From Eutreptiella sp. 'Long Island Sound 2002' (lineage: Eukaryota; Euglenozoa; Euglenophyceae; Eutreptiales; Eutreptiaceae): a stretch of DNA of 64,000 nt. The notes below the pieces were generated by a model. The model was not told the origin of the DNA. It saw nothing but the letters and a program-made list of their open reading frames with translations, and searched no databases. The position numbers and the translations under genes were made by a program. Position 1 is the stretch's first letter, and every line of letters starts with the position of its first letter. The DNA is taken from the NCBI GenBank assembly GCA_964036045.1, contig OZ038388.1:29099759-29163758 (forward strand), in the 5' to 3' direction. This document shows, piece after piece, positions 1 to 41,476 of the stretch.

Positions 1-534
1 TCGCAGAATTCAGACAGGAATGACAGACAGGTACATGGTGCCAAGGGGGGAAAGGGTAATTCGACTCCCTCCGGTGGGAACAAAAATACCGGAGGCCCTG
101 GCGGGTTCCAAGGCAAAGGGAATCGGACTCCATCCGGCTCCGGTGGACAGCCAAACGGCCAGACAAGTCCCAATGTCAACGCCGGAGGCGGAAATCGAAA
201 TCCAGGCCAAACCCCTCAATCCGGTACAAACAAAGGAAATGCTCCAGGATCACAGGGTAAGGGTAAGGGAAATCCTTCAGGAACCCCCTTCTCTGGTAAG
301 GGCAGAGGGCGTGGCGACGGTGGTGGCCCATCATCCGGCGGCCGTGGCCGTGGACGTGGAAAAGGAAACCATCGTGTGGATCAGGTCTCAGGTGCAGATC
401 AGGTGTCTGATGCGGATCGAGATTACGTCGAAAATGCTCTGAATCCAGCGGATGATCCGTTCCAAGATGAATGGATCGACGAAACAGGCTGTGTTCACAA
501 TGTTAACGCAGCCGCTGGAGGTCAGAACGCCTAG
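1..534 (+). CDS. 3' part of a Gly/Asn/Lys/Arg-rich low-complexity protein (partial)
   Basis: The frame is open from the first base of the window and closes at a TAG at 532-534, giving 177 codons with no internal ATG in the frame, so the start lies outside the window. The middle is rich in Gly, Asn, Gln, Pro and Lys. A short Arg-Gly run (GRGRGKG, about codons 115-122) follows, and the C-terminus is acidic, with motifs such as DYVENALNP and DEWIDETG. This composition resembles RNA-binding RGG-like tails or the C-terminal part of a retroelement gag. I recognise no folded domain. The competing ATG-initiated frame at 20-442 has no protein-like pattern. Function unknown; the coding call rests on length, composition and the sharp acidic end. 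Confidence 0.45.
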   Translation, partial: SQNSDRNDRQVHGAKGGKGNSTPSGGNKNTGGPGGFQGKGNRTPSGSGGQPNGQTSPNVNAGGGNRNPGQTPQSGTNKGNAPGSQGKGKGNPSGTPFSGKGRGRGDGGGPSSGGRGRGRGKGNHRVDQVSGADQVSDADRDYVENALNPADDPFQDEWIDETGCVHNVNAAAGGQNA

Positions 535-1021
535 GGGAGCCACGAAAATCGTCCCTCCCCAGGCGATTTCAGGCATGATCCCCAAATTCCTGATCGACCA
601 TTACTTGATGATATTTCCTATATATTTCTGATATGCCGGATTTGATTCCGCGGTCCATTTCCCGTAAATCCGCCGCATTCCGCTATTTTAGCTGGAATCG
701 CCATTTGCCGCTGACGCGCGCTCGCGGGGCAGATCGGCCAGACAATTTTACATAAATGGATTACTTAAATTCATTCGGACAGTTTTGGACACTCAGATGT
801 ATTTAGAATAATTCCCCTCAATTTTCTTCATAGACTGGGATTTTCTGCCGGACCACAATCAGCATGGATCTTGCTTCTGTTGTCGCTGCTCTCGCCTCCG
901 TTGGTGTCCGAGTGTCCGGTTCTACCCCCAATAACAACATCCAGGGAGACTCCTCGCGTGCCTGCCCCACTGGTCTTGCCGGCCCCGAGCCCTCCGGCAC
1001 CCACAACGACCCAGGGCAGCA
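535..1021. other. Non-coding stretch
   Basis: No convincing gene. An ATG frame starts at 864 and is ordinary for about 50 codons, then runs into the G-rich tract. Nothing else is recognisable. Confidence 0.4.
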
Positions 1022-1272
1022 CTTTCAGGGGGGAGGGGAGGGAGGGGAGGGGGGAGGGTTGGGGGGCTTGGGGGGTTTGAGGGGGAATTGGGGGGGCCCC
1101 GGGATGGGAGGAGGGTGCGGGGGGGGGGGGGGGGGCGGGGGAGGAGGATGTTGGAAAAGCTGGAGGGGCGCAGGGGGGAGAGGGGTGGGGGGGCTTGGGG
1201 GGGTTGGAGGGGAGGTTTGGGAGGGCCCGTGGGGGGGGAGCGTAGGGGGGAGTAAAGGGGTAAAAGGGGGGA
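1022..1272 (+). repeat. Strand-asymmetric G-rich low-complexity tract
   Basis: About 250 bases made almost entirely of G runs of 3 to 14 separated by A, T or short mixed spacers, with very few C on the plus strand. The minus strand reads as Pro-rich in every frame, but this is a by-product of composition. Many overlapping GGG runs could form G-quadruplexes. Such a tract is also prone to consensus error in long-read assemblies, so exact lengths are uncertain. Confidence 0.85.
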
Positions 1273-2549: not shown

Positions 2550-5101
2550 CTAGCGCTTCCAATTAGGGTTACCGGAACCCTCCCGCGAGCCCCCCCACTG
2601 ATCCTCCAACCCAATGGCGGTCTCATCGGGGAGATAGACCACCCATGCAACTTGGGTGGTTCCCCCCTTTTCGGTTTCCCGCTCCACCTGCCGAAAGTTC
2701 CTACCCCCTGCAAGCCGCTTCTGATTGACGTTCGGGACCCAGAAGGCTTCAAAACTGCTGAGTCGGCCCTTGGAGTCGGGCGGACAGAAGGTGAAAGGGG
2801 GGGTGCACTGGTCGGAGTCGACCAGAGCGAGGGGGAGATAGGGGACGGCCTTTTCTGGTGGCAGGAGCCACTGCGTGGGATTGCCCTTGCTGAGCATCTC
2901 CTCCACCTCAGCCTTCGCCTTCTGAACGGGGACAGACCTCTTCATCTGCCATTCCCCCCCCCAAACAACAAACTTGGACAGAGTTGTCCAACAAAAACTT
3001 GGATCCCGAACGTCAAACTGCTGCCTCAAACCTGCTCCCTGCACCGGCAACGACCCCCTACGAATGAACTCTTTAAAAAAATTTGCCGTTGCAAACGTGC
3101 AACGGTACGGACCCCCATCGACACGAGCCCTCTTTGCCTTGGGCTCGTCAGGCTCAACGCCGCAGGGGGGGCTGACGGTCGAGCTCTTTCCCCAATGCTC
3201 GATCCGCGACTGCAGATCAGGCATTTTAGCCAGCGCCCTGTCCACCACCACCTGACAGATCCGCCTGATCCTCGGCGAATCCAAGCCTCCAGCTTCCCAG
3301 ACCAGCAGAAACCAGCTGGACTTGCCCCTCGAATCCTTGCTGCACTCGGCAATGACCGAGATGCAGTGGCCCATCCCTCCCCCAGTCCCTCCACCGCCGT
3401 CGACGAGCTTAATGGCATGACCATTAACCCTGCAAAGGACATGCCCATACACCCTGTCCTTCACCCTCTCGTACACGGACTTGTCCTGGGTCTTGATCGT
3501 TTTTTTGCCAGGCGGAGCTACCAGGTGCTCCGCCCGCCCTTCTGCCCAATCCAGCGTCGCCCCCCACCGGCTGTCGACACCCACAGCCCTCTCTGCCCGG
3601 ACAAAAAATGTCTTCTGGCGGATACCACGCGCTGCAGCTTGGTATTCCGCATCATACCCCCTGAGGTCGATTCCGACCTGCAGCCACTGACCCGTCTGGC
3701 CGTACACGTCCCTCCTATTCTGCACCGAAATCACCTCCCACTTACCACCCACAAACACCATTTCTACGACACCCCCAGGAGCAGCCCCCTCGAACTCGTA
3801 ACAAAACCAGGGAGGGTAAACGCCTGCAAGTCGCGACCCAGCCGTGATGAAGTCGCCCCCCAAAGAATTCTGGTCACCCCAGACCGTGGTCAACGGCCTG
3901 ACGAACCTCCCCGTCCGCCAGTCCATCTTGAAACAACAGGTCCGGCTTTCAACCTGTGTCAAGTTCGGCCCCCCCATCTCGGACCACAGCAGACGCACCC
4001 TGTCCCCCTTCCTGACAATAAACTGCCCCCAATCAACATGGGTCACGGTGGCCTGGCTGGGGTAGGTCATCTTCGAAGAAAAATACTGGCGACCCACCAG
4101 GGACCCGTCATCAGCATACAGTTGCCCTGCAGGCAAGGCAGAGGCGCTGGGAAGAATGTTCTGGGTGGTTAGAACTGGCTGGTTGGAACCTTCTGCAGCA
4201 GGTTCATCAGGGTCAGCAGCATCAGCAGGTGGAGGCGAAGGGGGCAACGGGTAATTTACGCCATAGAACATGGCCAGCTCGGTACCCGCCTTCACCTCCC
4301 GCCGGGTCCAAACCCTGGGGGTACCGTCATCCAGGTGGATGATCACGTCGCAATCCTCCTGGCGAGGGCGAGCGTTGATACGGCTAAAAATATTCCCCCT
4401 TTTACCCCCGTCCACCGGAATTCCCCTCCCAGTCTTTGAATCTGCCCCCCCGCCCTTGATGCACAAAACCTTATCCCCCCTACCCGTCAGGCAATCCGGT
4501 GCCGTCCCTTCAATCCTTTCCCCCTTGTACTCCCCCAGGCAGGTGTCCGCCGCAATATCCACCTTCGTTTTCACCCCCCGGCCTTCCCCAATCGTGGACT
4601 CCACGATCTGGAGGTGCTTCCCCATAACAAAATGCGGCCGCTCCACCACCGCCCGTTGCCCCTCCTCGTCCCCCGCCCCCGTGTCCGTGGCTCGGCGTTT
4701 TTGACCCCTCGTTGTTACCCCCTCCGGTTGCTTGGCCTCCGCCGCCCCCGTGTCCCTCAGTCGGCGTTTCGTTGTGCTTCGGCTCCTCGTTGTGACCCCC
4801 TCCGGTTGCTTGGCAGCCCCCCCGCCCCCCGCTTCTGCCCCCTTCCGCCCATCCTCCGCCTCCGCAGTCTCGGTGTCCTTCTCCTTCCCCTTCTCCTCCT
4901 CCGTTTTCTTTGCCTCCTCCTCCTCCTCCTCCTCCACCACCAACACGTCGGTCGGGGTTGGGGTGACCACCGGCGACTGGGGACCGGGGCTGGGCGAGCC
5001 TTCTCCAAGAAGCTGGCGTTCAGGACTTGGGCTTGGGCTTCGCTCCTTCTCATAAGCCCACTTCTCCGCGGGCTCCTCTCCCCTTTCCCTCTTGCCGAGA
5101 A
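2550..5101 (-). CDS. Terminal exon: divergent SET domain plus long unknown C-terminal region
   Basis: Last exon of the seven-exon minus-strand gene, 850 codons including the TAG stop. It starts after an acceptor read as TTGTATTCAG on the minus strand, and joining to exon 6 is in phase 1. First come Ser/Pro and acidic stretches with a poly-Glu run, and two copies of an AKQPEGVTTR unit followed by basic KRR motifs. A SET-like domain follows (roughly bases 4613-4250): GEGRGVKTK at its start, GNIFSRINA where NHS-type residues are usual, then VKAGTELAMFYG at the usual end. SET domains transfer methyl groups to lysine. Here the Asn-His pair is replaced by Arg-Ile-Asn and the DYG Asp by Phe, so activity is doubtful. 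The remaining 550 residues match nothing I know and contain a KAKRARVDGG nuclear-signal-like patch. The 596-codon plus-strand frame opposite is a shadow. Confidence 0.72.
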
Positions 5102-5184
5102 CTGAATACAAACAGCAAGGATCAGAGTTAAATTCTCAAGAAGCACAGCAGCAGAAGAAAACACTTACGCATGCAATTACATAC
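5102..5184 (-). other. Intron 6 of the J/Ulp1/SET gene (83 nt)
   Basis: Minus strand reads GTATGT at the donor (5184) and CTGTTTGTATTCAG at the acceptor (5102). Splicing leaves phase 1 and continues both flanking frames without a stop. An alternative GTAAGT donor at 5168 would retain a TAA, so 5184 is preferred. Confidence 0.75.
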
Positions 5185-5361
5185 CAAGGGCTCTCACATC
5201 CCCTCGGTGCAGGTCCCAGGACGCCTTCCTCTTCTTCTCCCGCTGCGGCTTCTCCCTGTGCCCCGCCGTCCTCCACCAATCCTCCCCCTCGTCCGACTCG
5301 AACCCGGCCAGCAGCTCGGCCACCGCTTCCTTCGTCGTCGCCGACACTGGACCCGCAGAAC
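5185..5361 (-). CDS. Exon 6: basic/acidic linker exon
   Basis: An exon of 177 nt, 59 codons, phase 1 at both ends. The acceptor reads CACCTATAG and the donor G|GTATGT on the minus strand. It encodes a stretch with AVAELLAGFESDEGEDWW followed by a Lys/Arg-rich EKPQREKKRKASW segment. No domain is recognised. An in-frame ATG just upstream (5375-5377) could also be a start, so this could be the first exon of a separate SET gene. The symmetric phase shared with the upstream exons argues for one long gene. Confidence 0.6.
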
Positions 5362-5399
5362 CTATAGGTGCAGGCATATGGTTTCGTTTATGAGGGTCT

Positions 5400-5817
5400 T
5401 TGTGAATCAGTAATTAGGGGGTAGCCTATCAAGGTTGATCATCAGTGGTGTTGTGCAATCAGTGGCAGACCTGCTTCTGCCCCTTCACCCTCCGCTTCTG
5501 CTCCTTCTTCGCCCTCCTCCGCTGCTTCCTCCACTTCGGCTTCAGCTGCACCTGGATCAGAGGATGTGCGTTCTATTGCAAGGACCAGCCTAGCAATGTC
5601 GTGCATCAGGGGCGGTAAATCAATAGTCAGGGGGTAGCCTATCAAGTTCGTGCATCAGAGGCCCCCGGTAAATCTATAATCAGGGGGTAGCCTATCAAGT
5701 TCGTGCATCAGAGGCCGCTGGCAAATCAATAGTCAGGGGGTAGCCTATCAAGTTCGTGCATCAGAGGCCCTTGTTGACTCCATAATCAGGGGGTAGCCTA
5801 TCAAGTTCGTGCATCAG
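5400..5817 (+). repeat. 53-bp minisatellite array, segment A
   Basis: Tandem units of about 53 bp containing TCAGGGGGTAGCCTATCAAG and TTCGTGCATCAGAGGCC. This segment lies in the introns flanking exon 5; the unit at 5400-5440 is degenerate. Confidence 0.85.
5471..5551 (-). CDS. Exon 5: Glu/Ala-rich exon
   Basis: An exon of 81 nt (27 codons) coding Glu, Ala and Gly only, with a charge pattern expected of a helix or disordered acidic linker. Minus-strand acceptor CCTCTGATCCAG, donor GCAG|GTCTGC, phase 1 both sides. A nearby acceptor six bases downstream keeps the same phase. Flanked on both sides by 53-bp minisatellite units. Composition resembles exon 2 (8222-8419). Confidence 0.5.
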
Positions 5818-6340
5818 AAGTGCCTTTGGAACTGTTGATGTGTTGACCAGGATCGCGGTGGTGGTAATGGGTGGTGACTGTGGGACTCCTCAGATGGCGG
5901 GTGCGAGAGGGGCTAAGATGGGTCGGGGTGTGTTGATTGGGCAATGGCCTGTGCCGCCCGAGGGGTGAAGCACCTGCAGCGGCTTTCTTCTCCGCCTCCA
6001 GCTTGGCTGCCTCGTCTGCAGCGGCTTTCTTCTCGGCCTCCAGCTTGGCTGCCTCGTCTGCAGCGGCTTTGTTCTCGGCCTCCAGCTTGGCTGCCTTGTC
6101 TGCAGCGGCTTTCTTCTCGGCCTCCAGCTTGGCTGCCTCGTCTGCAGCGGCTTTCTTCTCGGCCTCCAGCTTGGCTGCCTTGTCTGCAGCGGCTTTCTTC
6201 TCGGCCTCCAGCTTGGCTGCCTTGTCTGCAGCAAGAGGAACAGATGGATGGGGCAGGGGGTTGCATGGATGATGGCACAGCAAGCGGAGGAGGAGGGCGG
6301 ACGGGGGTCGGGGAGTATACAACGCAGAGGGTAAACCAAT
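5818..6340. repeat. Segmental duplication containing coiled-coil exon, copy 1
   Basis: Begins GAAGTGCCTTTGGAACTG and ends GCAGAGGGTAAACC. It carries exon 4 with its flanking intron sequence. It differs from copy 2 (6851-7332) by a few substitutions and one 42-nt exon unit. Confidence 0.9.
5974..6225 (-). CDS. Exon 4: coiled-coil exon, six 14-residue repeats
   Basis: An exon of 252 nt = exactly six copies of a 42-nt unit encoding DKAAKLEAEKKAAA or close variants (D/E and K/N changes). This Lys/Ala/Glu pattern predicts a long alpha helix or coiled coil. Minus-strand acceptor TTCCTCTTGCTGCAG, donor GCAG|GTGCTT, phase 1 at both ends. It lies in a block duplicated at 6851-7332, whose exon has five units. 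It could equally be read as part of a longer unspliced frame, but that frame quickly becomes satellite sequence. Confidence 0.6.
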
Positions 6341-6850
6341 AGTCAGGGGGTAGCCTATCAAGTTCGTGCATCAGAGGCCCTTGGTAAATCAATAGTCAGA
6401 GGGTAGCCTATCAAGTTCGTGCATCAGAGGCCCCCGGTAAATCAATAGTCAGGGGGTTGCCTATCAAGTTTGTGCATCAGAGGCCCTGGGTAAACCAATA
6501 GTCAGGGGGTGGCCTATCAAGCTCGTGCATCAGAGGCCCCCGGTAAATCAATAGTTACGGGCAGGCCTATCAAGTTCGTGCATCAGAGGCCCTGGGTAAA
6601 CCAATAGTCAGGGGGTAGCCTATCAAGTTCGTGCATCAGAGGCCCCTGGCAAATCAATAGTCAGGGGGTAGCCTATCAAGTTCGTGCATCAGAGGCCCCT
6701 GGCAAATCAATAGTCAGGGGGTAGCCTATCAAGTTCGTGCATCAGAGGCCCCCGGTAAGTCAATAGTCAGGGGGTAGCCTATCAAGTTCGTGCATCAGAG
6801 GCCCCCGGTAAGTCAATAGTCAGGGGGTAGCCTATCAAGTTCGTGCATCA
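6339..6850 (+). repeat. 53-bp minisatellite array, segment B
   Basis: About ten head-to-tail copies of the 53-bp unit. Adjacent GTAGCC positions at 6615, 6668, 6721 and 6774 fix the period at exactly 53. It lies in the intron between the two coiled-coil exons. Confidence 0.9.
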
Positions 6851-7332
6851 GAAGTGCCTTTGGAACTGTTGATGTGTTGACCAGGATCGCGGTGGTGGTA
6901 ATGGGTGGTGACTGTGGGACTCGTCAGATGGCGGGTGCGAGAGGGGCTAAGATGGGTCGGGGTGTGTTGATTGGGCAATGGCCTGTGCCGCCCGAGGGGT
7001 GAAGCACCTGCAGCGGCTTTCTTCTCCGCCTCCAGCTTGGCTGCCTCGTCTGCAGCGGCTTTCTTCTCCGCCTCCAGCTTGGCTGCCTTGTCTGCAGCGG
7101 CTTTGTTCTCGGCCTCCAGCTTGGCTGCCTCGTCTGCAGCGGCTTTCTTCTCGGCCTCCAGCTTGGCTGCCTTGTCTGCAGCGGCTTTCTTCTCGGCCTC
7201 CAGCTTGGCTGCCTTGTCTGCAGCACGAGGAACAGATGGATGGGACAGGGGGTTGCATGGGTGATGGCACAGCAAGCGGAGGAGGAGGGCGGACGGGGGT
7301 CGGGAAGTATACGACGCAGAGGGTAAACCAAT
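6851..7332. repeat. Segmental duplication containing coiled-coil exon, copy 2
   Basis: Second copy of the block at 5818-6340, carrying exon 3 with five instead of six 14-codon units. Separated from copy 1 by minisatellite segment B. Confidence 0.9.
7008..7217 (-). CDS. Exon 3: coiled-coil exon, five 14-residue repeats
   Basis: An exon of 210 nt = five 42-nt units encoding DKAAKLEAEKKAAA-type repeats, a duplicate of exon 4 with one unit fewer. Minus-strand acceptor CCTCGTGCTGCAG, donor GCAG|GTGCTT, phase 1 both sides, so inclusion or skipping never breaks the frame. The flanking intron sequence is duplicated together with the exon. Confidence 0.6.
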
Positions 7333-7797
7333 AGTCAGGGGGTAGCCTATCAAGTTCGTGCATCAGAGGCCGTTGGCAAATCAATAGTCAGGGGGTAGCC
7401 TATCAAGTTCGTGCATCAGAGGCCCTTGGTAAATCAATAGTCAGGGGGTAGCCTATCAAGTTCGTGCATCAGAGGCCCCCGGTAAATCAATAGTCAGGGG
7501 GTGGTTTATCAAGTTCGTGCATCAGAGGCCCTGGGTAAACCAATAGTCAGGGGGTGGCCTATCAAGTTCGTGCATCAGAGGCCCCCGCTAAATCAATAGT
7601 TACGGGCAGGCCTATCAAGTTCGTGCATCAGAGGCCCTGGGTAAACCAATAGTCAGGGGGTAGCCTATCAAGTTCGTGCAGCAGAGGCCGCTGGCAAATC
7701 AATAGTCAGGGGGTAGCCTATCAAGTTCGTGCATCAGAGGCCCCCGGTAAATCAATAGTCAGGGGGTAGCCTATCAAGTTCGTGCATCAGAGGCCCT
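7325..7797 (+). repeat. 53-bp minisatellite array, segment C
   Basis: About nine copies of the same 53-bp unit in plus orientation, in the intron between exons 2 and 3, ending at the inversion point near 7813. Confidence 0.9.
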
Positions 7798-7813
7798 GGG
7801 TAAACCAATAATC

Positions 7814-8160
7814 AGGGCCTCTGATGCACGAACTTGATAGGCTACCCCCTGACTATTGATTTGCCAGCGGCCTCTGATGCACCAACTTGATAGGCTACCC
7901 CCTGACTATTGATTTGCCAGGGGCCTCTGATGCACGAACTTGATAGGCTACCCCTTGACTATCGATTTGCCAGGGGCCTCTGATGCACGAACTTGATAGG
8001 CCACCCCCTGACTATTGACTTACCAAGGGCCTCTGATGCACGAACTTGATAGGCCACCCCCTGACTATTGACTTACCAAGGGCCTCTGATGCACGAACTT
8101 GATAGGCTACCCCCTGACTATTGATTTACCGGGGGCCTCTGGTGCACGAACTTGATAGGC
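7814..8160 (-). repeat. 53-bp minisatellite array, segment D (inverted)
   Basis: Same unit in reverse orientation, read as ATGCACGAACTTGATAGGCT on the plus strand, about six and a half copies. Together with segment C it makes a large inverted repeat with a spacer of about 16 bases. Confidence 0.9.
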
Positions 8161-8221
8161 TCCCATGGTGAGGCGTAGTAATGTAGTGTCGCAATGTAGT
8201 GTCGTGCAATTCCTGGCAAAC

Positions 8222-8419
8222 CTGCAGGGAGTTCTTGTGGCAATTCCTGCTCCGTCTCTTCTCCTCTTGCTTCCTCTCCGGCTGGTGCTGGTGCTCCTTC
8301 TGCCGCTTCTCCTCCCGCTTCTTCCGCAGCGGCGACTTCCTCCGCTGCTCCTCCTTCCGCTGCCTCCACACCTTCCACGTTGCCTGCTTCCGGCTCTCTT
8401 GGCTCCTCCGTCTTTGGCA
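8222..8419 (-). CDS. Exon 2: Glu/Ala-rich linker exon
   Basis: An exon of 198 nt (66 codons), rich in Glu, Ala and Gly with an APAPAGEEARGEE segment and an ELPQELPA end. Minus-strand acceptor GTCGCCTACAG, donor CTGCAG|GTTTGC, phase 1 at both ends. It joins the protease exon to the coiled-coil exons. The alternative unspliced reading of the upstream exon through this region gives an Arg/Ser-rich frame without structure. Confidence 0.6.
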
Positions 8420-8492
8420 CTGTAGGCGACGATGGGAGGACTGCTGCTGGCATGCATCGGCGAGACGCTCGCCCAACAGTGATATATCATAC
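8420..8492 (-). other. Intron 1 of the J/Ulp1/SET gene (73 nt)
   Basis: Minus-strand donor GTATGATATATC at 8492 and acceptor CGTCGCCTACAG ending at 8420. Phase 1; joins the protease exon to the Glu/Ala-rich exon in frame. The unspliced frame continues into Arg/Ser-rich sequence and satellite. Confidence 0.65.
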
Positions 8493-10530
8493 CTTCCTCT
8501 TCTGCCATCTTCACTTGTTCCTCACGACGGGCAGGCATTGTGGATACTGAAGAAGGGGTTCTAGAATCCGGGAAGAGCGCATGATCGGGAACTACATCCG
8601 TATGCAGCAGACGTACTGTTCTGTGCCAATTACGTAAAATATTCCTAAGGTCTAAGTCGCTTAGTTCTAGCGATAGAGGTGACAAATCAACCTCGCTACC
8701 GCGTAAAACAAGGGAAACGACCCACTCTGGACCACAGCACGCAAACACTGCACACGACCAACCATCTGGCTGATGTACACAGTGACATTTCTTAAGGTTC
8801 GGGTCGGTAGAGAATGGCCATGGCTGGTGCTGATTATGCACCTGCCAATGCCGCTTAAGGAGGTCCCACAGAACGGTTCCACGCTGTTGCCGTTGGGCAG
8901 AATCCGGACACAGAGAATCCAGAATCCACACTTCAGGGGACGAGAGCAGATGAAGAAAAATTGCCACCCACCAGTGCCCCTGCTCGCCACAGAACAAAAT
9001 AAACCAATCGAGGGCAAAGAGGTTTTCCTTCTGTGGCAAGCACTTTTTGCGCCAAAGGGTAACAGACCACACCCTTCGCTGGAGGCCGAGTTTCCGATGG
9101 AGGAGCAAATTCATGAGTTGCACTCGAATTTCAATCAAATTATCTCCGATCCAACGATCACCCCCCAATTGTCCCGTTATTTCACGGTTTGTCAACAAAA
9201 TGCCTAGGACTCTGATGCCACCTACCCCAGATGCAGGGCCCTCGGCAGGAGATGGGGTGTCGTCGGCATCAATATATTCCGGGTGAGGAGGTGAGGAGGT
9301 TGAAGTTGGCTCAGGGCTAATGGGTCCGTGCAGCGCAGTGGTGCCGGGGTTAGCAGCTTGCATGGGCTCCGGAGATTCCACGTCGGCCATTGATGGCCAC
9401 CAAACGTGTTCACGCGGCCCAAGAGCAGGGTCATCCCCTAAATCTTCCCCCCGTGGTGCAACGAGGCCGTTCAATTGAGCCTCGTACAGCCGTCGGCTAT
9501 CCCCACAAAGGATGTCTTTCGCCCCATTGATTCTCTGAATGACACTGATGTCAAACCTCTGAGCCCACAGCCCCAGTTTCCGATACCATTTTTTAACGAC
9601 GGCCTCATCGGCCCCACGCGGCAGACCTAGCAGTTCATGAGCCCACGGACGGCTCATGTCAAGCTGCTCCAAAACGGGCTGGCGGGCATCGTGGGTATCC
9701 TCCCACCCTACTTGTGCCTGCACTCGGGCCCAAAGATCGTCCTTGTTTCGCAAGGAGAGGAAAGAGATTGCTGTCTGGGTGAGCTCGCCCCGCTCTTCGG
9801 CCTCCTCGAGGAAAAAATCCTGCACCTTTTTTCGAAAAGGAGAGTCCCCTAAGGATGCGACCCACGTTTCCAATTTTTGGATACAGGCACGGAGTTCTAT
9901 TTTCTCCGTGCACTTGTGGATCTGTCTCTTTACCTCATCCCAATCTTGGGACAGATCTATATCACCAATACTAGACGGCCCCGATGAAGCCGTCGAAGAT
10001 TGAGAAGGTTGTGAGGTTTATTGGCTTGACGTAGGCGTCAAAGTAAGAGGGGTAGAAGGGGTGGGGAGCTCTGGTGAAGAGGACGTTTGGGAGGTGAACT
10101 CGCCTAGATCCGGCATGTCCAGATTTGGGGGTGTTTGCGAAATCCCTTCGTCTTCCGCGTCGTCCACCATCACCTCTGCTTCTGGGTCAGGTATGGCCTC
10201 GGCTGCAACCGGTTGGTCTGACGGCTGGGATGGGTTAGGCTTCGGGTCAGGCTTTGGGTCAGGCTTCGCGCTTTGGGACTCAGGTTTGGGTGTGGAGATG
10301 GGCGCAGAGGTTAGTACTTGGTGCCCACCCTCGGGCGTGAGTGTTTGTACCTCGGCTTGCGAGGCAAAGGAAACGCTCCGCTTCTTATGCTTTTGTGGGC
10401 CAGGCACGCTCCCCATTAAATCCATCAGCGATGGCCCTTCCGCTGCCCTGGCTGCAGCATATGCCGTTGCCTTGGCCTTCTTTTCATCGGAGATTGGTGT
10501 CTTCGGTGGCATTCTAGAAGTGCGCGTCAT
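8493..10530 (-). CDS. Exon 1: J-like domain and Ulp1/C48-type cysteine protease, with one in-frame TAA
   Basis: The frame starts at ATG 10530 and runs to a donor G|GTATGA at 8492 (phase 1). The first 170 codons are Pro/Ser/Lys-rich, with repeated KPDPKPDP. They end at a TAA (10018-10020), after which the same frame continues open. A J-like domain lies at about 9642-9469: HELLGLPRGADEAVVKKWYR is followed by a helix like that of DnaJ proteins, but the HPD tripeptide that stimulates Hsp70 is absent (QRF instead). A Ulp1/C48-like protease fold follows, with His in GHWWVAIF (8976), Asp in VWILDSL (8919) and the QPDGWSCAVF signature with catalytic Cys (8754). C48 enzymes cut SUMO-type modifiers and are common in transposons as well as hosts. 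The first ATG after the TAA is at 9657, inside the conserved region. A weak 60-nt phase-2 intron could remove the TAA. Confidence 0.7.
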
Positions 10531-10812: not shown

Positions 10813-10960
10813 GTATATATATATACATATATACATATATATATATATATAGATGTACATAAATGTGTTTGTATATATATGTATATATTTCACTTGGAGG
10901 GAGTAAATATTCAGTAGGAGGGAGTGGATTTTCACTCGGAGGGAGTATACATACATACAT

Positions 10961-11011
<51 letters not shown>

Positions 11012-11293
11012 TACATAGATGTACATACATGTATTTGTATATAGGGAGTAGAAATTGAGTAGGAGGGAGTGGATATTCGCTTGGAGGGAGTGGATTTTCA
11101 CTCGGAGGGAGTGGAAACTGAGCAGGAGGGAGGTGAAATTGAGTAGGAAGGAGTGGATATTCACTTGGCGGGAGTTGAAATTGAGGGGAAGGGAGTGTAT
11201 TTTCACTTGGAGGGAGTATACAGCAATATATATATATGTATATATGTATATATATCTACATACATACATACATACATACATCTACATATATAT

Positions 11294-11351
<58 letters not shown>

Positions 11352-11655
11352 ACATATATAGATATATATATATATATATACATATATATACATATATATA
11401 CATATGTATATATATGTATGTATGTATGTATGTGTGTGTGTGGATGTGTGTGTATGTATGCGTATATATATATATATATATATATCTACATATCTACATC
11501 TATATATATATATATACATATAAATATATATATAGATGTACATACATGTATTTGTATATATATATGTATATATTTCACTTGGAGGGAGTAGAAATTGAGT
11601 AGAAGGGAGTGGATATTCACTTGGAGGGAGTTGAAATTGAGGGGGAGGGAGTCGA
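10661..11655. repeat. TA/CA microsatellite field with interspersed GGAGGGAGT repeats
   Basis: Runs of (CA)n, (TA)n, (TG)n and (TATG)n at 10663-10880, 10945-11045 and 11220-11572. Between and after them are clusters of a 20- to 26-bp unit of the form GGAGGGAGTGGATTTTCACT (about 10895-10950, 11045-11220 and 11575-11655). The long ORFs here (Tyr/Ile repeats) are composition artefacts. The field lies just 5' of the J/Ulp1/SET gene. 11656-11779 shows nothing recognisable. Confidence 0.9.
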
Positions 11656-11779
11656 TTTGCGCACAGCGCTAAATGCGTTCAAAACAGCGAAGTAAAGGGC
11701 AACGCTCGCCAATCACACATCTGTCAGTAGTTAATAATAAGTGACAGAGTGATCAGAAGGTGAAATTCGAACTAATTAG

Positions 11780-13272
11780 AACAACAACATAACATTCATG
11801 CCTTTCTGTCAGTTGCGGTGGTTTTTTCAGTTATGCGTGTCGCTTGTTCGTGCGCAGTCTTTCGCAGTCTGCTAGGGCCGCAGTCTGCATACTGTCACCG
11901 GTGCACGTTGCTGCTGGCGCGCGCGCGTGCCCGTCAAATGGCATCTGGCGGATTTGCGATTTCGATTTCTGGCACGACAAATCGATCTGAAATCATGGAA
12001 TCATTTGTTTGAAAAATCTGTATGTACTGTACAATCGATCGAATAATCCCGCCTGTTGACTTTTGGCGATTTTAGCAAACATGCAGCAGTGGCGACAGTT
12101 CTCTCCCTTATAGAGTACGGGATATGAGGTTTGAGACATGAGTCATGAGGTACGGGATACCCGGTACGGGATATGCGGTATGTTGTACACATTGTGAGGT
12201 ATGGGTGATGTGTTTGGAAATATGGATTATGGGAATCGCGGTGTCAAATGTGGTGTCACAGTACAGTTTAGGAGGGGTATATTTCACTCATGGAGTACGG
12301 GATATGATGTTTGAGTCATGAGTCATTAGGAGGAGTAACTGTCACTCATAGAGTACAGTTCTCTCGCTTATAGAGTACGGGATATGAGGTTTGAGACATG
12401 AGTCATGAGGTACGGGATACCCGGTACGGGATATGCGGTATGTTGTACACAGTGTGAGGTATGAGTGATGTGTTTCGAAACATAGATTATGGGAATCGCG
12501 GTGTCAAATGTCATGTCAGAGTACAGTTTAGCAGGGTTATATTTCACTCATAGAGTACGGGATATGAGGTTTGAGACATGAGTAATGAGGTACGGGATAC
12601 GAGGTACGGGATATGCGGTTTGTTGTACACATTGTGAGGCATGGGTGATGTGTTTGGAAATATGGATTATGCGAATCGCGGTGTGAAATGCGGTGTCAGA
12701 GTACAGTTTAGGGGGGGTAAATTTCATTCATAGAATACGGGATATGATGTTTGATAGAGTACGGGATATGAGGTTTGCGGCATGAGTCATGAGGTACGGG
12801 ATACCAGGTACGTGATATGCGGTATGTTGTACACAGTGTGAGGTATGGGTGATGTGTTTGGAAATATTGATTAGGCGAATTGCGGTGTCAAATGTGGTGT
12901 CAGAGTACAATTTAGGAGGGGTAAATTTCACTCATAGAGTACGGGATATGATGTTTGAATGAGGTACGGGATACGAGGTACGGGATATGCGGTATGTTGT
13001 ACACAGTGTGAGGTATGGGTGATGTGTTTGGAAATATGGATTATGCGAATCGCGGTGTCAAATGTGGTGTCAGAGTACAGTTTAGGAGGGGTAAGTTTCA
13101 CTCATAGAGTACGGGATATGATGTTGGAGACATGAGTCAGGTGGCACGGGATATGAGGTACGGGTCATGAGGTGTGTTGTATTGAATATGTGAAATGCGG
13201 TGCGGTGTGAGATATGGTGCTATGGTGATTTGGTGATATGGCCCGCGCTTCAAGCGCGGGCATTCGCACTAG
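11780..13272 (+). mobile_element. Helitron-like unit 1 (5' end unclear)
   Basis: Ends with hairpin arms GCCCGCGCTT/AAGCGCGGGC at 13241-13261, then ATTCGCA and CTAG at 13269-13272, the arrangement seen at Helitron 3' ends. Its body has several copies of the roughly 170-bp satellite. The 5' limit is not determined. No coding capacity. Confidence 0.6.
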
Positions 13273-14156
13273 TTAATATATTTAATTGTGGTATGGACGT
13301 TTCTTCGTTCGTTCGTCGTCGTCGTCCTTCGTCATACCCAAAAAATCCTCCCAATTGTGCACGCTGCTGCTCGCGCGCGCGCGTGCCCGTCAAATGGCGG
13401 CTGGCGGATTTGCGATTTCGATTTCTGGCACGAGAAATCGATCTGAAATCATGGATTCATGTAAATCGATCTGAAATCATGGAATCATGTGTTTTAAAAA
13501 TCTGTATGTACTGCACAATCGATTATCCGGGTATCTGCACGAATAATCCCGCCTGTTGACTTTTGGCGATTTTAGCCAACAGGCAGCAGTGGGGCTCTCG
13601 CTTTTAGAGTACGGAATATGAGGTTTGAGACATGAGTCATGAGGTACGGGATACGAGGTACGGGATATGCGGTATGTTGTACACAGTGTGAGGTATGGGT
13701 GATGTGTTTGGAAATATGGAATATGCGAATCGCGGTGTCAAATGTGGTGTCAGAGTACAGTTTAGGAGGGGTAAATTTCACTCTTAGATTACGGGATATG
13801 ATGTTTGATAGAGTACGGGATATGAGGTTTGAGACATGAGTCATGAGGTACGGGATACGAGGTACGGGATATGCGGTATGTGGTACACAGTGTGAGGTAT
13901 GGGTGATGTCTTTGGAAATATGGATTATGCGAATTGCGGTGTCAAATGTGGTGTCAGGGTACAGTTTAGGAGGGGTAAATTTCACTCATAGAGTACGGGA
14001 TATGAGGTTTGAGACATGAGTCATGTGGCACGGGATATGAGGTACGGGACATGAGGTGTGTTGTATTGGGTATGTGAGATGCGGTGCAGTGTGAGATATG
14101 GTGCTATGGTGATATGGTGATATGGCCCGCGCTTCAAGCGCGGGCATTCGCACTAG
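13273..14156 (+). mobile_element. Helitron-like unit 2
   Basis: Starts directly after the previous CTAG with TTAATATATTTAATTG, then (GTC)n, an AATCCTCCCAATTGTGCACG block, a GC-alternating tract, satellite copies, and a tail hairpin at 14125-14145 with CTAG at 14153-14156. Non-coding. Confidence 0.65.
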
Positions 14157-15672
14157 TTATATTTAATTGTGCTATGGTTCGTTCGTTCGTTCGTCGTCGT
14201 CGTCGTCGTCGTCGTTCAACATACCCAAAAAATCCTCCCAATTGTGCACGCTGCTGCTGGCGCGCGCGCGTGCTGCCTGTGGAAATTTTGGATTTGCGAA
14301 TGCAATTTGGATTTGCGTTTTGGAATTGCAAATGCGATGTCTGGGAATTTTAGAATTGCAAATGTACTTTTGCTTTTTGAATAGTGATACTGTGCGCAGC
14401 ATTTAGGGTTTTGCTGCAGGCGGTAACGGATCCGGCCGGTCCGCAAACCGCCCGGTCAAGCGTTCTGATGCACTTGATGGGTAGTGATGCAGTCCAATGA
14501 TGACAATGACTGATGATGCATGCTATGGCGGGCAACACGTCACTCAGTGAAGATTTTTAGATTTAGATTTTCATTTGGTTAGAATGAACAATCAAGAAAA
14601 AACAAACATGTAACACAAGTTGAAAACCATTCTTTCTACCTCTTTTGTAACAGTGACCGTAATCGAAATGTTGAGCTTCTTGAATGCCAAAAAAGTGCTG
14701 AAGACCCTTCGGAATGAGAAGAAGGAGACAGATGATCAGGTGTTGTTTCGAGTTGTGTTGTTCGCAGCTTGAGCCGGCGACTTCCCGTCGTTTTGACCGG
14801 AAAGCGATCGTCGTGGTTTGATACTGCCTTTGTGATGTGCGGCCGCAGGTATCGAACAAACAGTGTGTTCTCGTTAATATATTTAATCATGGTATGGCTC
14901 GTTCGTTCGTTCGTCGTCGTCGTCGTCGTCGTTCGTCATACCCAAAAAATCCTCCCAATTGTGCACGCTGCTGCTGGCGCGCGCGCGTGCCAGTCAAATG
15001 GCATCTGGCGGATTTGCGATTTCGATTTCTGGCACGAGAAATCGATCTGAAATCATGGAATCACGTGTTTTGAAAATCTGTATGTACTGTACAATCGATT
15101 ATCCGGGTATGTGCACGAATAATCCCGCCTTTTCACTTTTGGCGATTTTAGCCAACAGTTCTCTCGCTTATAGAGTACGGGATATGAGGTTTGAGACATG
15201 AGTCATGAGGTACGGGATACGAGGTACGGGATATGCGGTATGTTGTACACAGTGTCAGGTATGGGTGATGTGTTTGGAAATATGGATTATGCGAATCGCG
15301 GTGTCAAATGTGGTGTCAGAGTACAGTTTAGGAGGGGTAAATTTCACTCATAGAGTACGGGATATGATGTTTGAGTGAGGTACGGGATGCGAGGTACGGG
15401 ATATGCGGTATGTTGTACACAGTTTGAGGTATGGGTGATGTGTTTGGAATCGCGGTGTCAAATGTGCTGTCAGAGTACATTTTTGGAGGGGTAAGTTTCA
15501 CTCATAGAGTACGTGATATGATGTTTGAGACATGAGTCAGGTGGCACGGGATATGAGGTACGGGACATGAGGTGTGTTGTATTGCGTATGTGAAATGCGG
15601 TGCGGTGTGAGATATGGCGCTATGGTGATATGGTGATATGGCCCGCGCTTCAAGCGCGGGCATTCGTACTAG
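14157..15672 (+). mobile_element. Helitron-like unit 3, composite
   Basis: The 5' part runs to about 14275, then about 595 bases of unrelated sequence (to about 14870), then a second 5'-type start at 14871 and a normal body. Tail hairpin 15641-15661, CTAG 15669-15672. The middle sequence has no recognised gene. Confidence 0.6.
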
Positions 15673-16488
15673 TTCTATTTAATTGTGCTATGGTTCGTCG
15701 TCGTCGTCGTCGTCGTTCGTCATACCCAAAAAATCCTCCCAATTGTGCACGCTGCTGCTGGCGCGCGCGCGTGCCCGTCAAATGGCATCTGGCGGATTTG
15801 CGATTTCGATTTCTGGCACGAGAAATCGATCTGCAATCATGGAATCATGTGTTTTGAAAACCTGTATGTACTGCACAATCGATTATCCGGGTATCTGCAC
15901 GAAGAATCCCGCCTGTTGACTTTTGGCGATTTTAGCCAACAGGCAGCAGTGGCCCTCTCGCTTATAGAGTACGGGATATGAGGTTTGAGACATGAGTCAT
16001 GAGGTACGGGATACGAGGTGCGGGATATGCGGTATGTTGTACACAGTGTGAGGCATGGGTGATGTGTTTGGAAATATGGATTATGCGAATCGCGGTGTCA
16101 AATGTGGTGTCAGAGTACAGCTTAGGAGGAGTATATTTCACTCATAGAGTACGGGATATGATGTTTGAGTGAGGTACGGGATACGAGGTACAGGATATGC
16201 GGTATGTATGTTGTACACAGTGTGAGGTATGGGTGATGTGTTTGGAAATATGGATTATGCGAATCGCGGTGTCAATCGTGATGTCAGAGTACAGTTTAGG
16301 AGGGGTAAGTTTCACTCGTAGAGTACGGGATATGATGTTTGAGACATGAGTCAGATGGCACGGGATATATGAGGTACGCGACATGAGATGTGTTGTATTG
16401 GATATGTGAAATGCGGTGCGGTGTGAGATATGGTGCTATGGTGACATGGTGACATGGCCCGCGCTTCAAGCGCGTGCATTCGCACTAC
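15673..16488 (+). mobile_element. Helitron-like unit 4, mutated tail
   Basis: Same plan as unit 2. The tail hairpin (16457-16477) has a mismatch and the terminal tetranucleotide is CTAC (16485-16488) instead of CTAG. Confidence 0.6.
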
Positions 16489-17367
16489 TTAATATATTTA
16501 ATTGTGGTAAGGTTCGTTCGTTCGTTCGTCGTCGTCGTTCGTCATACCCAAAAAATCCTCCCAATTGTGCACACTGCTGCTGGCGCGCGCGCGTGCCCGT
16601 CAAATGGCATTTGGCGGATTTGCGATTTCGATTTCTGGCACGAGAAATCGATCTGAAATCATGGATTCATGTAAATCGATCTGAAATCATGGAATCATGT
16701 GTTTCAAAAAACCTGTATGTACTGCACAATCGATTATCCGGGTATCTGCACGAAATATCCCGCCTGTTGACTTTTGGCGATTTTAGCCAACAGGCAGCAG
16801 TGGCGCTCTCGCTTATAGAGTACGGGATATGAGGTTTGAGACATGAGTCATGAGGTACGGGATACGAGGTACGGGATATGCGGTATGTTGTACACATTGT
16901 GTGGCATGGGTGATGTGTTTGGAAATATGGATTATGCGAATCGCGGTGTCAAATGTGGTGTCAGAGTACAGTTTAGGAGGGGTAAATTTCACTCATAGAG
17001 TACGGCATATGATGTTTGATAGAGTACGGGATATGAGGTTTGAGACATGAGTAATGAGGTACGGGATACGAGGTACGGGATATGCGGTATGTTGTACACA
17101 GTGTGAGGTATGGGTGATGTGTTTGGAAATATGGATTATGCGAATTGCGGTGTCAAATGTGCTGTCAGAGTACAGTTTAGGAGGGGTAAGTTTCACTCAT
17201 AGAGTACGGGATATGAGGTTTGAGACATGAGTCATGTGGCACGGGATATGAGGTACGGGACATGAGGTGTGCTGTATTGGGTATTTGAAATGCGGTGCGG
17301 TGTGAGATATGGTGCTATGGTGATATGGTGATATGGCCCGCGCTTCAAGCGCGGGCATTCGCACTAG
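16489..17367 (+). mobile_element. Helitron-like unit 5
   Basis: 5' TTAATATATTTAATTG, (GTC)n, body, satellite copies, tail hairpin 17336-17356 and CTAG 17364-17367. No coding capacity. Confidence 0.65.
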
Positions 17368-18370
17368 TTATATTTAATTGTGGTAAGCTTCCTTCGTTGT
17401 CGTCGTTTGCCGTCGTCGTTGTCGTCGTTCGTCATACCCAAAAAATCCTCCCAATTGTGCACGCTGCTGCTGGCGTGCGCGCGTGCCCGTCAACTGACAT
17501 CTGGCGGATTTGCGATTTCGATTTCTGGCACGACAAATCGATCTGAAATCATGGGATCACGTGTTTTAAAAATCTGTATGTACTATACAATCGATTATCC
17601 AGGTATCCGCACGAATCATCCCGCCTGTTGAATTTTGGCGATTTTAGCCAACAGGCAGCAGTGGCGACAGTTCTCTCGCTTATAGAGTACGGGATATGAG
17701 GTTTGAGCCATGAGTCAAGAGGTACGGGATACGAGGTACGGGATATGCGGTATGTTGTACACAGTGTGAGGTATGGGTGATGTGTTTGAAAATATGGATT
17801 ATGCGAATCGCGGTGTCAAATGTGGTGTCAGAGTACAGTTTAGGAGGGGTAAATTTCACTCATAGAGTACAGGATATGATGTTTGAGTGAGGTACGGGAT
17901 ACCAGGTACGGGATATGCGGTATGTTGTACACAGTGTGAGGTATGGGTGATGTGTTTGGAAATATGGAATATGCGAATCGCGGTGTCAAATGTGGTGTCA
18001 GAGTACAGTTTAGGAGGGGTAAATTTCACTCATAGAGTACGGGATATGATGTTTGAGTGAGGTACGGGATACGAGGTACGGGATATGCGGTATGTTGTAC
18101 ACAGTGTGAGGTATGGGTGATGTGTTTGGAAATATGGATTATGCGAATCGCGGTGTCAAATGTGGTGTCAGAGTACAGTTTAGGAGGGGTAAATTTCACT
18201 CATAGAGTACGGGATATGATGTTTGAGACATGAGTCAGGTGGCACGGGATATGAGGTACGGGACATGAGGTGTGTTGTATTGGGTATGTGAAATGCAGTG
18301 CGGTGTGAGATATGGTGGTATGGTGATATGGTGATATGGCCCGCGCTTCAGGCGCGGGCATTCGTACTAG
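17368..18370 (+). mobile_element. Helitron-like unit 6
   Basis: Same plan; contains three regular satellite copies spaced 170 bp (17753, 17923, 18093). Tail hairpin 18339-18359 and CTAG 18367-18370. The next unit begins TCTTAATATATTTAATTG. Confidence 0.65.
17690..18220 (+). repeat. About 170-bp satellite inside Helitron-like units (best block)
   Basis: Tandem copies marked by TATGTTGTACACAGTGTGAG and by GAGTACGGGATATG, spaced 170 bp here. The same satellite recurs with irregular spacing throughout 12100-19200. Confidence 0.85.
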
Positions 18371-19225
18371 TCTTAATATATTTAATTGTGGTAAGGTTCG
18401 TTCGTTGTCGTCGTTTGTCGTCGTCGTTCGTCATACCCAAAAAATCTTCCCAATTGTGCACGCTGCTGCTGGCGCGCGCGCGTGCCTGTCAAATGGCATC
18501 TGGCGGATTTGCGATTTCGATTTCTGGCACGAGAAATCGATCTGAAATCATGGAATCATTTGTTCCAAAAATCTGTATGTACTGTACAATCGATCGAATA
18601 ATCCCGCCTGTTCACTTTTGGCGATTTCAGCCAACAGGCAGCAGTGGCGACAGGTCTCTCGCTTATAGAGTACGGGATATGAGGTTTGAGACATGAGTCA
18701 TGAGGTATGCGATACGCGGTACGGGATATGCGGTATGTTGTACACATTGTGAGGTATGGGTGATGTGTTTGGAAATATGGATTATGGGAATCCGGGTGTC
18801 AAATGTGGTGTCAGAGTACAGTTTAGGAGGGGTATATTTCACTCATGGAGTACGGGATATGATGTTTGAGACATGAGTCATTAGGAGGGGTAAATGTCAC
18901 TCATAGAGTACAGTTCTCTCGCTTATAGAGTACGGGATATGAGGTTTGAGACATGAGTCATGAGGTACGGGATACCCGGTACGGGATATGCGGTATGTTG
19001 TACACAGTGTGAGGTATGGGTGATGTGTTTCATAATATGGATTATGCGAATTGCGGTGTCAAATGTGTTGTCAGACTACAGTTTAGGAGGGGTAAATTTC
19101 ACTCATAGAGTACGGGATATGATGTTTGAGACATGAGTCATGTGGCACGGGATATGAGGTACGGGACATGAGGTGTGTTGTATTGGGTTTGCGAAATGCG
19201 GTGGGGTGTGAGATATGGTGCTATG

Positions 19226-25943: not shown

Positions 25944-26383
25944 GATCTTCCACAGCTCACAACGTACATGCCATCCAACTTCAACGTCTCAGACCGTGAG
26001 TGATGGGCCGACAACAAGATCAATGCGGAGCCTCTGCCATCCCTACCCATGGGACCAGTGCGAACCCTGATAGGATCACCGCGTAGGCTGGATACCCAAC
26101 TGTGAGGACGCGGCCCTATCACTCTATCAATTTTGTTTGCAACCCGCGCATTTGCGCGGGCCGATTGCTAGTACGGCTTAGGACTACGCGTAGGACTAAA
26201 GGATCTGCCCACATCTGGCGCATGCGCTTGAATTAACTGAAAATGGGGGGAAAACGGAATTGATTTTCTGATTTAATTTGATTGATTGCTGTGGCTGAAC
26301 AGCGTATTTTTATAAATGCCAGCATCAAGCGCATTTGTTCTCCTATTTTTCAGACACAGAAGACACATATTATTGTCACACAG

Positions 26384-40801: not shown

Positions 40802-41476
40802 CTATTCCTCATCAGGGAACTTCACATCCACCCCTGCAGCCATGAGGGACTTGGCCATCCAGGCCAAGCGCCTCTTCTTTGAATTATTCCCCTCAGGGGT
40901 AGCGTTATCCCCTTGGGGGCGTTTCTTGGAGTCACCTGCGGCAGGAGCGGGTGTAGCAGCAGGAGTGGGTGTTGCAACGGGCGCTGATGAGCGCCTCTGG
41001 GGGTTAGGGGGTCCAGTTTTGCCACCCCCCTTGCCACCTCCTTTACCTTTATCCCCATTCGGGGGATTTCTGTCGGGCGTCTGGGTCTTCTGGCGTTCCG
41101 CCTCTTGACGCTTGAGTTTATCACTCTCGCGTTTCTTGATGTGGCATTCGTCCTCGTAGTGACGACGTTTGCCACAGTAACCACAGGTGATGGTACACCT
41201 GAAGTGGTCCTGATGGGTCACAGTTTTCCCATCTTTGGTATGCTGCTGACGTTTCATCTGCAGCATACAGCCACTGCGGAGATCGCAGTCAGAGGCATGA
41301 CAAGGTCCCCCCTTGTCATTCCCAGGTCTGCAGTAGAACAAGGGGGGTGTGCCTGCATCAGGTTGAACCTCGTTCATGGCACGTAGGTTGCCCCTCCCTT
41401 TACCACCTCCCTGGTTGGTGTTAGTGGGATTTTTATGCCCCTTCCCTTCGCCACGTTCGGGGGTAGGGGTACCACC
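40802..41476 (-). CDS. gag: Chromovirus nucleocapsid segment with CCHC zinc knuckle
   Basis: Continues the gag frame immediately after a TGA (41477-41479) and ends at a TAG (40802-40804); open throughout, first ATG at 41377. It contains CGYCGKRRHYEDEC, a CX2CX4HX4C retroviral-type zinc knuckle, an additional Cys/His cluster before it, then Lys/Gly- and Pro/Ala-rich tracts and an SKKRRLAWMAK basic patch. Nucleocapsid domains bind the genomic RNA. No start signal of its own is obvious, which fits production by stop readthrough from gag. Confidence 0.82.
   Translation of the reverse strand, partial: GGTPTPERGEGKGHKNPTNTNQGGGKGRGNLRAMNEVQPDAGTPPLFYCRPGNDKGGPCHASDCDLRSGCMLQMKRQQHTKDGKTVTHQDHFRCTITCGYCGKRRHYEDECHIKKRESDKLKRQEAERQKTQTPDRNPPNGDKGKGGGKGGGKTGPPNPQRRSSAPVATPTPAATPAPAAGDSKKRPQGDNATPEGNNSKKRRLAWMAKSLMAAGVDVKFPDEE

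Follow-up and report, generated by a model that had tools for sequence, protein, structure and literature searches.

Is the region at positions 2550 to 10,530 of the sequence above one large gene, or is it part of a mobile element? The sequence is a 64,000-nt stretch (the window) of Eutreptiella sp. 'Long Island Sound 2002', contig OZ038388.1 of assembly GCA_964036045.1 (C11:29099759-29163758). The original prediction had placed in this region a single seven-exon gene on the minus strand, joining a J-like domain, a C48/Ulp1-type protease, a coiled coil and a SET domain. We are close to certain that what lies here is the 5' portion of a single copy of a Mutator-like DNA transposon (MULE), which is repeated in the genome. 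Between their terminal inverted repeats (TIRs), full copies carried in one direction a J-like/C48 gene, coiled-coil cassettes, a SET-like gene and a MULE transposase. An alternative that the original prediction had mentioned, cargo of an unknown large element, was borne out by the TIRs, the target-site duplications (TSDs) and the MULE transposase.

Termini, copies and extent of the transposon

The genome searched comprised 2.28 Gb in 2205 contigs. The missing flank of the window copy and the flanks of ten further copies were compared, with only the upstream side for the copy on C4. The left end was read in 9 of the 11 copies, and these started at the identical base with CGGTGAC and had unrelated flanks. 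The eight right ends that were read were the mirror of the left terminus. Both ends were read in seven copies. Six of these (C5, C6, C10, C15, C24 and the window copy) had a 9-bp TSD (GCTAGGGCC in C6, AACGTGCAC in the window copy, and CCAAACGAG, CATTTCTCC, CCCCTGGAT and AGGGGTGAC among the other four), and the C7 copy had a 10-bp target-site match instead of 9 bp. A length of 9 bp is described as typical of MULEs in the part of PMC2528002 cited here. TIR identity was 63 to 67 of 69 bases in all five copies measured; such repeats are usual in MULEs, though some lack them. The TIRs were not visible from the window alone because the other end lies outside it. The terminal features within the window were as follows:

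11901..11909, unstranded: 9-bp TSD AACGTGCAC (read in gene orientation), flanking both ends of the window copy (end comparison)
11832..11900, minus strand: 5' TIR, with 63 of 69 bases matching the TIR of the other end
1..1030, unstranded: one end of a nested gag-only long terminal repeat (LTR) element of 3.88 kb, the remainder at about C11:29096910-29099758

The element is approximately 17-18 kb long, and the copy at C10:26562985-26581217 measured 18,233 bp. By hand-derived coordinates, the window copy spans about C11:29090968-29111658 including the nested LTR element, the partner of the AACGTGCAC duplication lies outside the window at about C11:29090959-29090967, and the transposase gene and 3' TIR lie beyond the window within C11:29090968-29099758. 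The nested LTR element had a 1021-aa gag-like open reading frame (ORF) and 418-bp direct repeats that were 99.5% alike; no pol-sized ORF was seen in its 3.88 kb.

Nine of 11 copies had the C48 exon in colinear position upstream of the SET exon. For C4 it was listed at a distance of 20.65 kb upstream, and C1 had 5,000 N in part of the stretch. Six of the ten downstream flanks (window, C6, C7, C10, C15 and C1) extended through the transposase region as far as the right end. The right end was also reached in C24 and C5, with large internal deletions, and in C13 and C17 colinearity broke in a 53-bp array, with a transposase listed further downstream. On C6 (3847344-3868729; L013 and L014) a copy was inserted into a TIR like its own, with the TSD GCTAGGGCC; the family thus hits itself or a close relative.

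In the C10 copy, the SET gene was followed downstream, on its own strand, by a 1201-aa ORF (P0019). Residues 547-642 of P0019 matched the MULE domain PF10551 with an E value of 7.1e-17 and 62.1 bits against a cut-off of 27.6. The transposase ORF of the window copy lacked 181 bp. This deletion, the stop in its C48-like gene and the nested LTR element mark the window copy as a damaged one, whereas the C48, SET and transposase searches showed open copies at other places in the genome. A second MULE transposase, visibly unlike that of the main element, was observed in two adjoining ORFs at 26282-29317 on the plus strand of the window, the first of which matched PF10551 with an E value of 1.6e-18.

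An immobile, lineage-specific family of host chromatin-regulator genes, spread by segmental duplication, would likewise have a high copy number and recognisable domains. However, the sharp identical ends with unrelated flanks, the TIRs and the 9-bp TSDs speak for transposition, a MULE transposase lies within the repeated element, and the termini already contradict a host family, which we regard as extremely improbable. The MULE family is real and repeated, and it has probably spread recently. A viral origin was rejected: two viral-contig scans gave 59 and 147 pattern matches, and none was a relative by tblastn. PHROGs and NCBIfam gave nothing credible for the three proteins submitted.

Copy number and gene order

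The genome contained at least 58 SET-like rows, some partial or frameshifted, at least 85 C48-like rows and at least 40 transposase rows; 38, 57 and 28 of these, respectively, had no stop inside the match, the C48-like count covering only the stretch downstream of the TAA found in the window copy. These searches scored 53, 85 and 39 places out of 8269, 1121 and 5844 candidates, respectively. The same 53 SET, 85 C48 and 39 transposase places were used to compare gene order, after fragment rows had been merged or dropped (five SET and one transposase). Among the listed matches, 32 of 33 SET/C48 pairs within 60 kb had the C48-like gene upstream on the same strand, the exception being on C26, and all 21 SET/transposase pairs had the transposase downstream on the same strand. 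Order-conforming pairs within 6 kb numbered 25 for SET/C48 and 18 for SET/transposase, and among the matches listed, which are lower bounds, a partner was present for 32 of the 85 C48 and 21 of the 53 SET places. With at least 53 SET-like and at least 85 C48-like places in the genome, the occurrence of these domains is beyond chance. The co-occurrence of C48-type and SET-type modules in a fixed order, which had been predicted from the window, held in 32 of 33 listed pairs, on the same strand.

One fused protein or two genes

The seven claimed exons were rebuilt at their coordinates, and their lengths and phases agreed with the original prediction:

8493..10530, minus strand: claimed exon 1, the J-like and C48-like gene (2038 nt), with a TAA at 10018-10020 in this copy
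8222..8419, minus strand: claimed exon 2, a frame rich in E and A (198 nt)
7008..7217, minus strand: claimed exon 3, coiled-coil repeat ADKAAKLEAEKKAA in 42-bp units (210 nt)
5974..6225, minus strand: claimed exon 4, a second copy of the cassette of exon 3 (252 nt)
5471..5551, minus strand: claimed exon 5, rich in E and A (81 nt)
5185..5361, minus strand: claimed exon 6 (177 nt)
2550..5101, minus strand: claimed exon 7, the main exon of the SET-like gene, open in the window copy (2552 nt)
5185..5377, minus strand: first exon of the SET-like gene, beginning either with a separate ATG (5377) or at the splice acceptor of claimed exon 6 (5361) (copy comparison)

GT-AG at every exon border and phase 1 at all junctions were confirmed in the rebuilt model, and the exons totalled 5508 nt, that is, 1835 codons and a stop. 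The claim of one frame of about 1,835 codons failed in the window copy, since codon 171 was an in-frame TAA (10018-10020). This site was CAA in all eight other retrieved copies that held it, and three retrieved copies lacked the site. The window copy thus has no single 1,835-codon frame, and the stop is specific to it.

Could the other copies nevertheless encode a fused J/C48/coiled-coil/SET protein from one seven-exon gene, of which the window copy is a decayed version? The phase 1 junctions, the GT-AG borders and the lack of the TAA in other copies favour such a gene. Eight borders (the donor of exon 1, the acceptors and donors of exons 2, 5 and 6, and the acceptor of exon 7) kept GT/AG in all retrieved copies in which the site was located; this comparison covered all borders other than those of exons 3 and 4. 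However, the compared copies were mostly 93-98% identical and thus too similar for a splice-site test, so that this conservation is no proof of splicing. Exons 3 and 4 are two cassette copies of 42-bp units, both encoding ADKAAKLEAEKKAA, so their phases are preserved jointly and the phase arithmetic is weaker than it appears. The number of cassettes was not constant, the window copy having two and the C10 copy three, and cassettes with a different number of units in other copies kept the same 42-bp unit, as a fused gene would allow. Two genome rows had open frames of more than 2,400 aa, C1:60499407 in the SET search and C1:123706439 in the C48 search, but the former had 5,000 N upstream that may read as open and the latter had a stop inside the match.

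Database searches pointed to separate proteins. Single-exon searches covered 5.8 billion proteins, with 7988 (SET) and 7996 (C48) candidates scored at E values up to 1. The SET exon had five relatives with 84-93% identity, in clusters of 160, 7, 1, 2 and 1 sequences, and the C48 exon had 12 relatives with 85-98% identity, the largest cluster holding 95 sequences. These were separate proteins of 372-772 aa, all from ENA, and no more distant relatives of either exon were found at E values up to 1 among the candidates scored. Because fused proteins were outside the length limits of these searches, the full spliced 1,835-residue protein with X at the stop was also used as a query, and no fused relative of 1009-3211 aa was found among the 7990 candidates scored. 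The sole hit, a bacterial discoidin-domain protein, was unrelated and was rejected.

The gene models pointed the same way. An ATG at 5377, in frame with exon 6, was kept in all 12 copies compared, the window copy included, and an in-frame TAA was located at 5416, 39 nt upstream of it, in the window copy; from this ATG the SET-like gene would have two exons and encode 914 aa. The C48-like ORF measured 170 aa in the window copy, but was open over 807 aa in all four other copies checked (C10, C7, C17 and C15). The database protein P0015 started at the ATG corresponding to that of exon 1, and the database protein P0006 ran through claimed exon 2 in a different frame. The predicted joining of C48 and SET modules in one protein was thus not upheld, as the window copy is stopped in exon 1 and no fused relative was found among the candidates scored. 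Judged from these sequences, the J-like/C48 and SET-like cargo are probably separate genes. A fused gene appears unlikely, and fusion by splicing is not needed to explain intact copies.

The J-like/C48-like and SET-like genes

The domains and motifs assigned within the two genes were the following, where H, D, Q and C are the four catalytic residues of Ulp1, and HPD and NHS are the J-domain motif and the SET cofactor motif, respectively:

9472..9651, minus strand: J-like domain without HPD (PF00226, 17.9 bits, cut-off 27.8)
8653..9234, minus strand: C48/Ulp1-like protease domain, aligning with 1euv at all four catalytic positions
8974-8976 (H), 8917-8919 (D), 8770-8772 (Q) and 8752-8754 (C), minus strand: C48-like catalytic set from the 1euv alignment
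4260..4583, minus strand: SET-like domain covering positions 1-105 of 105 of PF00856, with NAR in place of NHS and the C-terminal ELAMFYG kept

The similarity of the predicted J domain was weak, its score lying below the Pfam cut-off. HPD was absent from the window and from the relatives compared, which had AQRFD or a near variant there. Recruitment of Hsp70, which the original prediction had associated with J domains, is therefore unlikely and was rejected for this one.

The C48-like domain matched yeast Ulp1 (PDB 1euv) with an E value of 0.035 when trimmed and 0.21 when untrimmed, and the catalytic order H-D-Q-C was present in the window. The SET-like domain matched PF00856 with an E value of 0.0061 (17.4 bits) for the whole exon and 2.3e-4 (22.0 bits) when trimmed. 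Four SET-type database relatives scanned with PF00856 scored 14.5-22.3 bits, P0005 being the highest at 22.3. A profile of six SET-like sequences listed SET proteins in 17 of 18 rows, among them LegAS4, SUV39H2 and KMT5A, with E values of 0.13-1.8. The C-terminal part of the SET-like protein (residues of about 302-861 of window:2553-5135, minus strand) had no Pfam match at E values up to 10.

Selection and the role of the cargo

We consider it fairly likely, taken as a whole, that the region is a MULE copy with two cargo genes that are most simply separate. The precedents of Ulp1-carrying MULEs, VANC proteins and SET-carrying MuDR elements, together with the tandem repeats of the element, led us to infer that these may form an anti-silencing kit. 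In this scheme the transposase would move the element by cut and paste, and would have done so recently. The C48-like protease may free host chromatin factors, or proteins of the element itself, of a SUMO-, NEDD8- or ubiquitin-type modifier, and the SET-like protein may alter or read chromatin at the element. Jointly they could counter host silencing, like VANC of the Arabidopsis VANDAL MULEs.

Several observations weigh against this. The anti-silencing role is drawn solely by analogy, and we propose it tentatively, at somewhat below even chances. Pooled ratios of nonsynonymous to synonymous differences (pN/pS) among close copies were 0.79, 0.86 and 0.83 for C48, SET and transposase, respectively. 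The corresponding substitution ratio (dN/dS) was 0.52-1.02 in the 18 pairs involving any of four more divergent C48 copies, which had been picked for stop-free frames. Across the five sections of the C48 exon, pooled pN/pS was 0.52, 0.80, 0.62, 0.90 and 0.70, the highest value, 0.90, being that of the protease domain. Two of the four divergent copies had lost a catalytic residue, L038 having Y in place of D and L039 having Q in place of H. Pfam C48 matched none of 13 members at E values up to 10, nor the trimmed piece, and a profile of nine C48-like sequences did not list Ulp1. An unrelated lectin (E value of 0.011) ranked above Ulp1 in the untrimmed search, and unrelated beta-galactosidases (0.11-0.12) were close behind it in the trimmed search. 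The predicted C48-type protease therefore stands on the 1euv alignment with its four catalytic residues and not on a Pfam C48 match. For the predicted SET domain, similarity to PF00856 was supported, but the trimmed score of 22.0 bits is just below the cut-off of 22.4 and NHS is missing, with RINARP in five of six rows and RINTRP in P0002. AlphaFold models were uninformative, with mean predicted local distance difference test (pLDDT) values of 31.5 and 26.4.

The C48-like and SET-like genes might be passengers, fragments that the element has captured and that serve no purpose in it. The pN/pS values near 0.8 among close copies, the ratio of 0.90 in the protease domain among divergent copies, the low domain scores, the missing NHS and HPD motifs and the lost catalytic residues agree with this. 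However, gene order was constant in dispersed copies, 57 of 85 C48 and 38 of 58 SET rows were stop-free among the listed matches, 17 of the 18 pairs involving a divergent C48 copy (copies picked as stop-free) had a dN/dS of less than 1, and H-D-Q-C was retained in the window copy. As far as these sequences tell, there is a weak selection signal for function, least for the protease domain. We consider passengers unlikely.

Cargo of this kind may help a transposon escape silencing, and the question arises whether a transposon turns a deconjugating protease and a SET protein that it encodes itself against the silencing machinery. As one family has both genes beside its own transposase in many open copies, the silencing question is testable. 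For annotation, many of the C48-like and SET-like ORFs in this genome (at least 85 and at least 53 places, respectively) are likely to be transposon cargo and not host regulators.

A ubiquitin-like stretch in the transposase

Residues of about 100-166 of P0019 aligned end to end with residues 2-76 of ubiquitin and ended in RLRGG followed by VAWN. The alignment score was matched by 23 of 1000 protein shuffles for ubiquitin and by 185 of 1000 for NEDD8. All three PDB matches of this piece were ubiquitin-like, with E values of only 0.38-0.49. Against a home-made hidden Markov model (HMM) of six ubiquitin-like sequences, the isolated segment scored 2.7 bits, a value reached by 7 of 2000 shuffles, whereas elongin B scored 20.3 and SUMO1 40.0 bits. 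In single-sequence comparisons, between 2 (ubiquitin) and 457 (RAD23A) of 2000 shuffles reached the score. Because the segment was chosen by eye, the shuffle tests overstate the likeness. Other results argued against it: only one of five PDB matches was ubiquitin-like for the C12 copy and none of six for the whole protein, no Pfam match was found in residues of about 100-166 of P0019, and the HMM did not list the whole of P0019. The presence of a ubiquitin-like stretch ahead of the transposase domain is thus suggestive only.

If the stretch were real, it could act as a leader ending in RLRGG, after whose GG the element's own C48-like protease would cut, freeing active transposase, with the SET-like protein opening or marking the chromatin of the element. 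We find this scheme improbable. It would place modifier, protease and chromatin kit in one self-contained MULE, and a ubiquitin-like leader would be a new control of transposase release; no MULE transposase with such a leader was found among the papers listed in a literature search at title and abstract level, mostly of open-access papers.

Tandem repeats and other elements in the window

Both ends of the element were accompanied by tandem repeats, and further arrays, of 53-bp units, lay between the genes:

5613-5818, 6330-6852 and 7322-7817, with an inverted array at 7813-8161, unstranded: 53-bp tandem arrays around the cassettes (within 5613..8161)
10881..11656, unstranded: subterminal 21-bp minisatellite blocks and AT microsatellites (tandem-repeat comparison)

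An array similar to the subterminal 21-bp minisatellites was found near the other end of the C10 copy. Just beyond the left end of the transposon, satellite-like arrays with units of 170-260 bp occupied 12095-19174. Further along the window, several ORFs at 36000-42886 on the minus strand formed a second gypsy-type element, two of them with protease, reverse transcriptase, RNase H and integrase matches. A Pif1-type helicase piece (PF21530, E value of 2.7e-18), perhaps the end of a Helitron, was located at 46505-47197 on the minus strand. A 1660-aa gypsy-type pol ORF at 55443-60425 on the plus strand had reverse transcriptase, RNase H, integrase and a C-terminal chromodomain. The tRNA and Rfam scans of the window gave no match.

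Comparison with known systems

In the passages cited here, MULEs carrying Ulp1 genes are described from Arabidopsis, grapevine, melon and rice (PMC13317346; PMC2528002), and the function of Ulp1 in MULEs is termed unknown in a review (PMC13317346). The Ulp1-MULEs of plants (KAONASHI/KI-MULE, KIU and some VANDAL) likewise combine a MULE transposase and a C48/Ulp1-type gene in one repeated element. Unlike them, the present element has TIRs, a J-like N-terminus and an additional SET-like gene. KI-MULEs are described as non-TIR elements with Ulp1 opposite to mudrA, the direct orientation being known in melon and rice (PMC2528002; PMC13317346). Because it has TIRs, the present element was not filed with the non-TIR KI-MULE/KIU type, though it would work alike. 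For VANDAL MULEs, VANC proteins are reported that act against silencing and bind to tandem repeats in the non-coding parts of these elements (PMC10398659), and the present element also has tandem repeats in such parts.

HarbingerS and Phytophthora MuDR families are mentioned as carriers of SET genes (PMC12730594, citing Repbase Reports 2014). These are also DNA transposons with a SET gene, and MuDR belongs to the same superfamily as the present element. They differ in their oomycete hosts, and a C48 gene is not mentioned in the part of that paper cited here; the comparison is by description only. The same source describes fungal DNA transposons carrying TET/JBP (Kyakuja, Zisupton and others), for which the epigenetic enzyme is proposed to allow escape from silencing. 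They too encode an epigenetic enzyme, but its target is DNA methylation and they belong to other superfamilies.

At the protein level, H, D, Q and C of yeast Ulp1 (1euv) align with the C48-like domain, with an E value of only 0.035; unlike Ulp1, the present protein has a J-like N-terminus and no Pfam C48 match. The SET domains of KMT5A/SETD8, SUV39H2 and LegAS4 were the best profile matches of the SET-like domain, which differs from them in having NAR for NHS and a long C-terminal part without a Pfam match. No transposon with both C48 and SET genes was found among the papers listed in the literature search, made at title and abstract level, mostly in open-access papers and without Repbase Reports. 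Ulp1 in plant MULEs and SET in oomycete MuDR elements are already in print; the pair of C48 and SET genes in one element appears to be new.

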